This document shows, piece by piece, positions 911-43,075 of a DNA stretch of 64,000 nucleotides. The notes beneath the pieces were generated by a model. The model was not told where the DNA came from. It searched no databases and worked only from the letters and a program-made list of their open reading frames with translations. Each line of letters starts with the position of its first letter. Position 1 is the first letter of the stretch. The stretch comes from Chloroflexota bacterium (GTDB lineage: Bacteria; Chloroflexota; Dehalococcoidia; Lucifugimonadales; UBA2985), in assembly GCA_028877205.1 (NCBI GenBank), contig JAPPHY010000016.1, positions 62,001 to 126,000 of the forward strand, in the 5' to 3' direction. Position numbers and translations under genes: made by a program.

Positions 911-2635
911 CTAGTACGACCTCACCTGCGGCTGCCACTCCGTGATGGTGACCGGGCCAAACTCCAGGCGCGGTCCGTCCGGCGTGTGCAGCGCAATCGT
1001 GTGCTTTAGCCAGCCATCGTCATCGCGTTCCGGGTAGTCACGCCTTGCGTGGGCTCCCCGGCTCTCGCGGCGCTCGAGGCTGCTTGTCACCATGACCTCG
1101 GCCAAGTCCAGCATGTTGTCCAGCTCCAGCGCCGAGACCAAGTCCGTATTGAACACGCTGCCGTGGTCCTGTATCGATACAGCCTCAAATCGATTCTTCA
1201 GGTCGTGCAGTGCGTCGACGCCTGCGCCCAGGCCGGCGGCGTCCCGAAAGATTCCGGCGTGCTCCTGCATTGCGGCACCCAGCTCCCTGCGTAGTGCGGC
1301 CGTCCTGATGCCGCGATCGCTGCGGCTGAGCAACGCGTCGATGCGTTCGGCCTGTTCGCGAGCGATGGCCGGAGTCAGGTTCACAAAGTGCTCCTCCGCG
1401 GCCTCCTGCGCGGCTGTCCTGCCCGCGCGCCTGCCGAAGACCACGGTCTCCAGCAGTGAGTTGCCGCCGAGCCGGTTCGCCCCGTGGACGGACACGCAGG
1501 CGCACTCGCCGGCAGCGTAGAGGCCAGGCAGGGTGGAGCGTCCGTCGACGTCCGTCTTCACGCCTCCCATCTGGTAGTGCATACCGGGCCGGATGGGCAC
1601 GGTCTCAGTGACCAGGTCGACTCCCGCCAGATCCATGGCAAGCTCGTGAATCTGGTTGAGCTTGGTCATGATCAGGTCCCGGCCCAGGTGGCGCAGGTCC
1701 AGCATTACGCATCCATTCACGTCCCTGCCGGAGTCAATCTCCACCTGCTCCGCACGGGACACCACGTCCCTGGAGGCCAGCTCGAGCCGCTCCGGGGCGT
1801 AGTCCGACATGAACCTCTCGCCGAGGGCGTTGAGCAGGTGGCCGCCCTCGCCGCGCGCTCCCTCCGTGATGAGGACGCCGCTGGGGAACAGGGTAGTGGG
1901 GTGGAACTGCGTGAACTCCATGTCCATAAGCGCCGCGCCGGCGCGGTAGGCCAGCGCCATACCGTCGCCGGTGCAGATGAGGCCGTTGGTGGACGGCTCG
2001 TAGACGCGCCCCAGCCCGCCGGTGGCAAGTATGACGGCCTTGGCCTCGAAGGTGTGAAGCCTTCCGGTGCGCATGTCCATCGCAACAAGTCCCCGGCAGC
2101 GGCCGTCCTCGACTATGAGGCTGACCGCGAACCACTCGTCGTAGGTGGCGACGCTGTCCCTGATCGACTGCTCCCAGATGACGTGCAGGATGACGTGGCC
2201 GGTGATGTCGGCGACGAAGCATGTGCGGGGAAAACCGGCGCCGCCGAAGGGACGTTGGGCCAGCCGCCCGTCCTCGCGGCGGTTGAAGATTACACCCATG
2301 TGCTCAAGCTCCAGGATGTCGCCGGGAGCCTCGCGGCAGAGGATGGAGGCGGCGTCCTGGTCGGCCAGGTAGTCGCTGCCCTTCACGGTGTCGAATGCGT
2401 GGGATTCCCAGGAGTCGTCTTCGCCGAGGGCGGCGTTGATACCGCCCTGCGCGGCTACCGAGTGGCTGCGGGTGGGGTACACCTTGGAGACGACTGCGAC
2501 GTCTGCGCCGCAGCGGGCCGCTTCAAGCGCCGCCCTCATGCCGGCCAAGCCACCACCCAAGACCACGGCGTCGTGCCGGATGATCTCCTCTTCCACCGCA
2601 AATGGCATGGGGCAGGTCTCCTTGGGCGTGCTCAT
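911..2635 (-). CDS. sdhA: Succinate dehydrogenase/fumarate reductase flavoprotein subunit
   Basis: This is the catalytic FAD subunit of complex II (succinate to fumarate). The 574 residues are full length for the family. Near residue 27 is the dinucleotide-binding [11 protein letters not shown]. Then comes [15 protein letters not shown], whose His is the usual covalent FAD attachment site. The substrate-domain motif [20 protein letters not shown] and the C-terminal [10 protein letters not shown] follow. The C-terminus, with a WLKHT motif, is typical of SdhA. The gene has its own promoter: a -10 TATAGT ends only 12 bases before the ATG, so the leader is very short and no Shine-Dalgarno is seen. 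The NUDIX gene ends 35 bases upstream. Confidence 0.97.
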
Positions 2636-37417: not shown

Positions 37418-37640
37418 GTCACTCCTGCGGAAGCAGGAGTCTAGCACCTAGGCGGGGTGGATAGCCGGTAGCTCCACAAGACCGCGAAGCGAGACACACA
37501 GGCAGAGGCCTTGGATTCTTCGCTGCGCTCAGAATGACCACTACGCCTTGCCCGCTCAGGGATACCCTTCGACAAGCTCAGGGTGAGCGGGATTATCCGT
37601 GTTCCGTTCGTGCTGAGCTTGTCGAAGCATGAACGGCGTA
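37418..37640. repeat. Mixed repeat cluster
   Basis: The gap 37,301-37,698 holds no gene I can support. In order it contains a family B hairpin (37418-37443, ACTCCTGCGGAAGCAGGAGT), a third type (37511-37539, GGATTCTTCGCTGCGCTCAG), and two family A copies (37565-37592 inverted, and 37606-37636, GTTCGTGCTGAGCTTGTCGA). The overlapping short open frames are made of these repeats. Confidence 0.8.
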
Positions 37641-40191: not shown

Positions 40192-40220
40192 TTGACGCTC
40201 TCTTGAATCGGGCGTATGTT
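40192..40220 (+). promoter_or_regulatory. Promoter of the collagen-like lipoprotein
   Basis: TTGACG, a 17-base spacer, TATGTT. The predicted start, about 40,227, coincides with the 5' foot of the long hairpin at 40225-40327. Confidence 0.7.
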
Positions 40221-40224
40221 GTGC

Positions 40225-40369
40225 CTTGCGACAGTCGTTTGTGGTCATGGCATGTGTTTGCCATCGTTCGGTTGGGCATTCGTGCCCCCTTGCGAGGCAA
40301 TCACATGACCACGGCGACTGTCGCAAGTAGCCCAATCATGGCGGCGCAAGGGGGTTCCATATGCGACAG
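40225..40369 (+). promoter_or_regulatory. Structured 5' leader with anti-Shine-Dalgarno element (candidate riboregulator)
   Basis: A long imperfect hairpin pairs 40225-40237 with 40315-40327 (13 bp, perfect), 40241-40249 with 40304-40312 (9 bp, perfect), and 40255-40262 with 40296-40303 (one mismatch). A GGGCA-UUCG-UGCCC hairpin (40274-40287) lies in its loop. Bases 40285-40294 (CCCCCTTGCG) are an exact 10-base complement of the ribosome-binding segment 40345-40354 (CGCAAGGGGG). The 3' arm (40318-40325, CTGTCGCA) can instead pair with 40362-40369, which overlaps the start codon. The alternatives exclude one another, as in riboswitches or RNA thermometers. Everything described is read directly; function is inferred. 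Confidence 0.6.
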
Positions 40370-41020
40370 ATTCCGACAGTCTCAGTCTCCTGCCTTCTGT
40401 TCATCATGCTTGGCGTTGTGGCTTTCAGCTTCGGGTGCGGCCCTAGTGACGCCGAGATACAGGCGATTGTCCAGGAAGAAGTCGCCAAAGAGGTAGCCAA
40501 GATAGAGGTTCCGGCTGGCCCTGAGGGGCCGCAAGGACCACAGGGCGAGAAGGGCGAGCCAGGGGCACAAGGGGAGCAGGGCATATCAGGCCCGCAGGGA
40601 CAGCGTGGCGAACAGGGCGATGCAGGGCCGCGCGGCCCTGAAGGAGCGCGAGGCTATCCAGGGGAGAAGGGTGACCCCGGAGTGGCTGGACCGGAAGGTC
40701 CACGCGGCCCTGAAGGTCCGAGGGGGCCAGTAGGGCCTCAAGGGCCTGGGGGGACAGGAGGCGGTGGGACAGTAGAGATTCCGAAGGTGCTTGAGGTAGA
40801 AGAGTTGATCGTGCGTGATCCCAGCGGTGGCGGCTGGATTAGTATTCTGCCCGGAGACGACCAGTTTGCTGCCTCAATCACCTGGTACTATGCGGACTCG
40901 TCTGTGGAGTCCTCCGCGATCTATGGAGGCGCCACGGATGGGCTGATCTTCTTGGACGAAAACGCGGATGGCACGTGGACCCGGGTTTGCGTTTACAATA
41001 ACGCGATAGGCCGATGCTGA
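40361..41020 (+). CDS. Collagen-like repeat lipoprotein
   Basis: The 219 residues have a signal peptide with a likely lipidated Cys26 (FSFGC). A short acidic/alkaline coiled coil (about 30-50, [19 protein letters not shown]) may start a trimer. An uninterrupted run of 26 Gly-X-Y triplets (53-130) should form a collagen-like triple helix. A small C-terminal domain (about 137-219) has two cysteines near the end. It should be a surface-exposed stalk. The ATG has AAGGGGG six bases upstream. That site can be masked by the leader structure. Confidence 0.9.
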
Positions 41021-42920: not shown

Positions 42921-43075
42921 CACTCCGCTCATCCTGAGCTAGTCGAAGGGCGGGCGGATAGACGACGGTAGTGTTCGCCCGCTCGAATGGTTCGACAAGC
43001 TCACCACGAGCGGGCGAGGAGGCGTCCGTAGCCACGAGTGGGCGGGCTTGCGGCTCACCACGAGCGGGCGGGGAA
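42921..43075. repeat. Family A palindromes between convergent genes
   Basis: CCGCTCATCCTGAGCTAGTC (about 42927-42946) and an inverted copy at 42979-43013 (CGCTCGAATGGTTCGACAAG and onward) are followed by shorter fragments (CTCACCACGAGCGGG again near 43056-43070). The two main copies can pair. The 210-base gap holds nothing else. Confidence 0.85.

Follow-up and report, generated by a model that had tools for sequence, protein, structure and literature searches.

What is the long paired segment that lies between a promoter and the start codon of a collagen-like lipoprotein gene in the 64,000-nucleotide stretch of a Chloroflexota genome analysed here (the window), and could it control that gene? 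A first-pass annotation had proposed a translational switch, either a riboswitch or an RNA thermometer. We find that the window leader (40225-40358 for the leader proper) belongs to a family of cis-acting RNA leaders, not listed before, whose structure is conserved, and that it is one of two family copies in its own genome. Its parts, all on the forward strand, are these:

40192-40220, +: sigma-70-type promoter TTGACG-N17-TATGTT, with its predicted start at or adjoining the foot of stem P1
40225-40239, +: 5' arm of P1, CTTGCGACAGTCGTT, by complementarity and family covariation
40241-40249, +: 5' strand of P2, GTGGTCATG, partner of 40304-40312
40270-40277, +: loop strand of PK1, an extra pseudoknot, GGTTGGGC, partner of 40330-40337
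40274-40287, +: P3 hairpin, GGGCA-UUCG-UGCCC, competing with the anti-SD:SD pairing and, in the window copy, also with PK1
40285-40294, +: anti-Shine-Dalgarno (anti-SD), CCCCCTTGCG, exact partner of 40345-40354
40304-40312, +: 3' strand of P2, CATGACCAC, partner of 40241-40249
40313-40327, +: 3' arm of P1, GGCGACTGTCGCAAG, by complementarity and family covariation
40330-40337, +: spacer strand of PK1, GCCCAATC, partner of 40270-40277
40345-40358, +: ribosome-binding site and conserved tail, CGCAAGGGGGTTCC, the most conserved core of the family
40361-41020, +: collagen-like lipoprotein gene (219 aa; Pfam Collagen, E 3.6e-15; lipobox FGC near residue 26), the gene proposed as controlled
40362-40369, +: TGCGACAG within the first codons, complement of CTGTCGCA (40318-40325) in the P1 3' arm, an optional fourth helix

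Most of what had been read from this locus at first pass holds up. A promoter scan of the leader returned one promoter-like site (0.1 expected in shuffles), which is the promoter that had been placed at the foot of the structure. The proposed arms are complementary at 13 of 13 positions in their first block (40225-40237 with 40315-40327; 15 bp counting G-U pairs), and the second block corresponds to P2. The computed folding energy of 40225-40380 is -71.6 kcal/mol (z = -4.1), a value equalled by none of 200 shuffled sequences. The loop segment said to hide the ribosome-binding site is an exact 10-nt complement of it, and the UUCG hairpin does lie where it can compete with this pairing. PK1 overlaps P3 in the window copy, and the two are mutually exclusive there.

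Searches by DNA similarity were uninformative: in its own genome the window leader matched only itself, and in relatives it gave only short, chance-level matches. Such searches fail because the stems do not keep their sequence, and pairing was sought instead. A blind scan for long perfect inverted repeats, covering a 402 kb sample of the genome, returned only 17 perfect stems of at least 12 bp with a spacer of up to 130 nt, and it uncovered a second leader on another contig (G000:C19:12755-12909), ahead of a gene with a signal peptide. The stem of this copy (GCTACAGCAACCGA/TCGGTTGCTGTAGC) is unrelated to that of the window copy (CTTGCGACAGTCG/CGACTGTCGCAAG); the loop core GGGCA-n-TGCCCCCTTG and the ribosome-binding site CAAGGGGGTTCC are identical in the two.

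The pattern CCCCYTTG-N42..66-CAAGGGG, run across the order, gave many matches, and few with a reversed control. About 30 of these matches show a common layout, comprising P1, an inner P2, a C-rich hairpin P3, a loop anti-SD CCCCCUUG and a ribosome-binding site CAAGGGGG just before the start codon. Searching with a covariance model trained on 27 leaders, we obtained 159 matches, spread over 55 of the 247 genomes of the order at one to eight each, and more in several further families within the phylum; the leader family is present in at least 60 related bacterial genomes. In the leader's own genome a full model search found two credible copies only, those of the window and of C19, and the viral contigs and plasmids searched contained no leader matches. 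The second copy, the homologues in many genomes, the covarying inner stem and PK1 had all escaped the first-pass annotation. Leaders are sometimes clustered within a few kb (G025:C1:2021588, 2023699 and 2027398; G549:C3:500588/504529; G529:C11:25028/30277; G534:C9:45840/46172), and two of those in the G025 cluster, both of a shortened 77-nt form, score identically.

Several sequences that resemble the leader were set aside. A third CCCCTTG..CAAGGGG match in the same genome (C14) adjoins an ABC-type gene and has no credible model match, and repeats such as CCCCTTTG..GGGGTCTGGGGG in several genomes fit the pattern, not the fold, and were excluded. In L074 the long inverted repeat proved to be a dispersed DNA repeat; the one in L089 lies inside a gene. 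The L074 repeat also occurs in the window, where a 15-bp perfect inverted repeat at 37567-37627 (CTTCGACAAGCTCAG) is part of it and a similar form stands near 42930. Another dispersed repeat, CCCCTTTGnCGGGGGTCTGGGGGTATCCCCCAGA...CCTTCCTGGCCAGGAAGGGGGCAAGGGG, accounts for pattern matches in G017, G041, G450, G016 and G051 and is unrelated to the leader.

Within the family, stem sequence is little shared among copies and the pairings are kept. P1 ranges from about 11 to 22 bp. Among 27 leaders, 13 of its 14 pairs show changes on both sides, and the structure has a covariation score of 0.409, compared with 0.152 for shuffled and at most 0.126 for slid controls. With 64 distinct leaders, both-side changes extend to all 14 modelled pairs of P1, and P1 together with the anti-SD:SD helix scores 0.494 (0.165 shuffled, at most 0.132 slid) with 266 double-change cells. 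The anti-SD:SD helix itself is 94.6% paired across the family, with both-side changes in five of ten pairs. Its changes are compensatory: 40287/40352 goes from C-G to U-A twice, 40291/40348 from U-A to C-G once, and 40293/40346 is C-G in 25 leaders, U-A in 14 and U-G in 14, with C-A in none. The first-pass annotation had staked its proposal on covariation in relatives; the leader survived this comparison, with both the arms and the anti-SD covarying.

Part of the P1 and SD signal arises by selection, because the first set of leaders was picked by the anti-SD/SD pattern (CCCCYTTG and CAAGGGG) and a strong P1. This collection bias does not touch P2 or PK1, nor the outer two pairs of the anti-SD:SD helix or the second genome copy. 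For P2 and PK1, a permutation test free of aligned pairs compared each leader's own strands with strands swapped between leaders. Mean complementarity of P2 is 8.6 for own strands versus 5.3 for swapped ones (z = 23), and that of PK1, in which the loop 5' of P3 pairs with the spacer before the ribosome-binding site, is 6.9 versus 5.2 (z = 12.5); none of 2000 permutations reached the observed value in either case. For some leaders, the inner helix scored as P2 may instead continue P1. The fourth helix fares less well: the earlier proposal that the P1 3' arm can pair with the first codons is correct for the window, but only some homologues have this pairing (z = 3.9 for the family versus 0.8 for a control region; clear in about 7 of 63).

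Leaders with altered cores, found by the model, point the same way as the features free of selection. They carry CCTCCTTG with CAAGGAGG (L180 and L206) and CCCCCTCG with CGAGGGGG (L199). A relative of the window protein in genome G010 is preceded by a leader (L054:1503-1616, minus strand) whose long hairpin follows directly on a TATGCT -10 element and whose loop CCTCTCGTGG and ribosome-binding site CCACGGGAGG form ten pairs, several of them compensated. This divergent leader retains the family layout, its altered SD being matched by an altered anti-SD. The model matches it only weakly (16.9 bits, E 0.095 over 419 kb), yet as the best match after the two true copies and at the expected place. 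As a separate observation, GGGGCC of P3 can pair with the GGUUCC tail just 3' of the SD in several leaders (L137, L131, L134), and L141 has a matching change (GGGUUC with GGGCCC); this P3/tail pairing might be a further alternative helix.

The leader keeps a constant place relative to promoter and gene. In 52 of 64 aligned leaders the best -10 hexamer begins 12-15 nt upstream of the first conserved G within P1, and the start codon follows 0-5 nt past the conserved tail in 57 of 63. The downstream proteins are mostly unrelated to one another and share no common pathway. They include Thr-Pro-rich lipoproteins, small membrane proteins, trypsin-like proteases and proteins with TPR, RCC1 or collagen repeats, along with one DNA methylase and one GmrSD protein; ribosomal-protein families are absent from the downstream products listed. 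What most of them have in common is a hydrophobic N-terminus (an export or membrane segment), present in 42 of 55 downstream proteins compared with 20% of 315 background ORFs, all from one genome (Fisher p 1e-15). A defence theme was considered and rejected, the defence-library matches downstream amounting to one methyltransferase, one GmrSD protein and proteases. Three orthologues of the window protein, in G010 (C16), G046 and G525, have no leader. The control is therefore not essential to the function of the gene, and the leader behaves as a module that can be gained or lost. A synteny search for an empty site turned up no close relative in which the flanking gene keeps its position.

Two single loci deserve mention. 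The ORF after the leader in L131 (after 1575, plus strand) seems to begin ATA AGT AAA CGA CGC... and reads as a signal peptide, which would mean an unusual start codon or a decayed gene. In L135, a DUF3800-VI RNA (RF02915, E 1.7e-8; 917-969, minus strand) lies about 450 nt upstream of a leader of the family that stands ahead of a DNA methylase gene.

We propose, with a probability of roughly 0.78, that the leader is a translational gate for exported accessory proteins, closed by default. The structure, its conservation, its placement at gene starts and the export bias are computational observations; the direction of control, the switching and its trigger we infer. Transcription from the foot of P1 would produce an mRNA that begins as a long P1-P2 stem presenting the loop. 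In the open form, the loop CCCCCUUG would close P3 with its 5' neighbour and leave the ribosome-binding site free. In the closed form, the same loop would pair with CAAGGGGG across the stem as a pseudoknot, hiding the ribosome-binding site, and PK1 would hold the spacer just upstream of that site against the loop. Mean helix energies computed for 63 leaders, which ignore pseudoknot geometry, are about -21 kcal/mol for anti-SD:SD, -9 for P3, -18 for PK1 and -23 for P1, and the ribosome-binding site with the 16S tail gives about -12 kcal/mol. Because the anti-SD:SD energy exceeds both that of P3 and that of SD with 16S, the closed form should be favoured at equilibrium and the gene should be off or low by default. 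It might then be opened by some factor in trans, or translated only while P3 holds the anti-SD soon after transcription; such a short open period is plausible, since P3 folds while the ribosome-binding site is still to be transcribed. Where the linker is 0-2 nt long, PK1 and the anti-SD helix are hard to accommodate together, and the closed form may differ among family members.

The first-pass idea of a translational switch is strongly supported in its core, a folded 5' leader with a loop that masks the ribosome-binding site; its thermometer variant is not supported, and a strict ligand-binding riboswitch is one possible form of it. A more ambitious version of the gate, which we advance tentatively, is that these leaders are a new class of portable riboregulators defining an exported-protein regulon, and that they sense a cue linked to export or the envelope (a protein, a ligand or the ribosome) and open through exchange between P3 and the double pseudoknot.

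How might such a gate be worked? Possibly, at somewhat less than even odds, by a protein or a trans-acting RNA: an RNA-binding protein linked to envelope stress or secretion would recognise the base of P1 and open or lock the leader, making the exported proteins its regulon. The P1 base (GCCACAG/CTGTGGC) is 76-90% conserved though paired, the downstream genes are strongly biased to export, and the leader is portable between unrelated genes, all of which would suit this protein version of the gate. Against it, no partner gene was identified, and conservation of the P1 base could instead reflect a promoter or start-site preference.

A true riboswitch, in which the P1-P2-loop domain would bind a small molecule or an ion and thereby stabilise either P3 or the anti-SD:SD pseudoknot, is the ligand version of the same gate, and we consider it rather unlikely. 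In its favour, the leader is conserved and pseudoknotted, occurs in many copies, has competing helices that form an expression platform at the ribosome-binding site, and belongs to no known class. However, positions conserved at 70% or more fall nearly all in P1, P3 or the SD/anti-SD, and only about three unpaired columns reach this level besides the GTTCC tail. The P2 and PK1 sequences vary freely, unlike a ligand pocket, and the downstream genes do not point to one ligand or pathway.

The remaining explanations fare considerably worse. A passive 5' hairpin that shields the mRNA from decay, with SD complementarity by chance, would account for P1 beginning at the predicted 5' end; it leaves the conservation of anti-SD:SD, P2 and PK1 unexplained and is very improbable. 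Still less credible is the RNA thermometer. Base pairing can indeed hide a ribosome-binding site, but the helices are GC-rich family-wide, and by computed energies alone the SD-masking helix does not melt in the physiological range: anti-SD:SD still has -12.4 kcal/mol at 65 C, and P1-P2 is predicted to be intact at 75 C. Equally hard to sustain is an element acting as DNA, such as a miniature transposon, REP-like repeat, invertible segment or integron-type recombination hairpin. Such an element would fit a long inverted repeat and sporadic accessory genes, yet the arms covary while sharing little sequence between copies, the single DNA match in the genome and a second copy alike in structure, not in stem sequence, are unlike a MITE or REP, the position between promoter and start codon is constant, and covariation with the SD would be meaningless for DNA. 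As for an integron attC site, the hairpin ends TTGCCACAG/CTGTGGCAAG are, by eye, not RYYYAAC/GTTRRRY, and the leaders sit behind their own promoters. An intrinsic transcription attenuator was dismissed, as the leader has no terminator-like site and no U-run after P1.

In agreement with the earlier remark that no known riboswitch class is recognisable, none of 4227 Rfam 15 families matched the window leader at E up to 10, and 11 homologous loci gave no Rfam match over the leaders themselves. A literature search, with many journals outside its coverage, found no description of the family. In riboswitches of the preQ1 and SAM types the aptamer is compact, the bases that contact the ligand are conserved and the genes controlled are metabolic. 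The preQ1 and SAM/SAH (and SAM-II) translational riboswitches are described as having a 5'-leader pseudoknot in which the Shine-Dalgarno sequence takes part or is masked (PMC11625349, PMC7367207). The present family shares this SD-hiding pseudoknot; unlike them, it has a P1 of 12-22 bp with largely free sequence, its conserved bases are mainly SD/anti-SD, its genes encode exported proteins, and a ligand is not part of its description.

In type I toxin mRNAs the SD is locked by long-range pairing and the timing of folding matters. A commentary describes this sequestration as a pseudoknot or as metastable (PMC11295053). The SD of the present leaders can be locked in a similar way, but they mostly precede genes for lipoproteins and membrane proteins, an antitoxin RNA is not seen, and the layout is conserved across unrelated genes. 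Autoregulatory leaders of ribosomal proteins, for example the S15 leaders, are also structured and control expression, with several unrelated architectures (PMC4137082). Our family resembles them as a structured leader with proposed control of expression; its downstream genes do not encode ribosomal proteins. Like the Chloroflexi-1 and other motifs of Weinberg et al. 2010, which are candidate structured RNAs from comparative genomics (PMC2864571), it was found by comparing genomes, whereas no Rfam 15 family matches it. We class these RNAs as a new family of translational leaders and keep the label "riboswitch" open.

The leaders are a structured RNA family that Rfam does not contain, in which the layout clearly covaries and two pseudoknots surround the start site. 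Their occurrence ahead of many unrelated genes for exported proteins would imply that a shared RNA module controls the translation of envelope proteins in these bacteria. If its trigger is found, the leader would represent a new kind of switch, and if that trigger is a ligand, a new riboswitch class.
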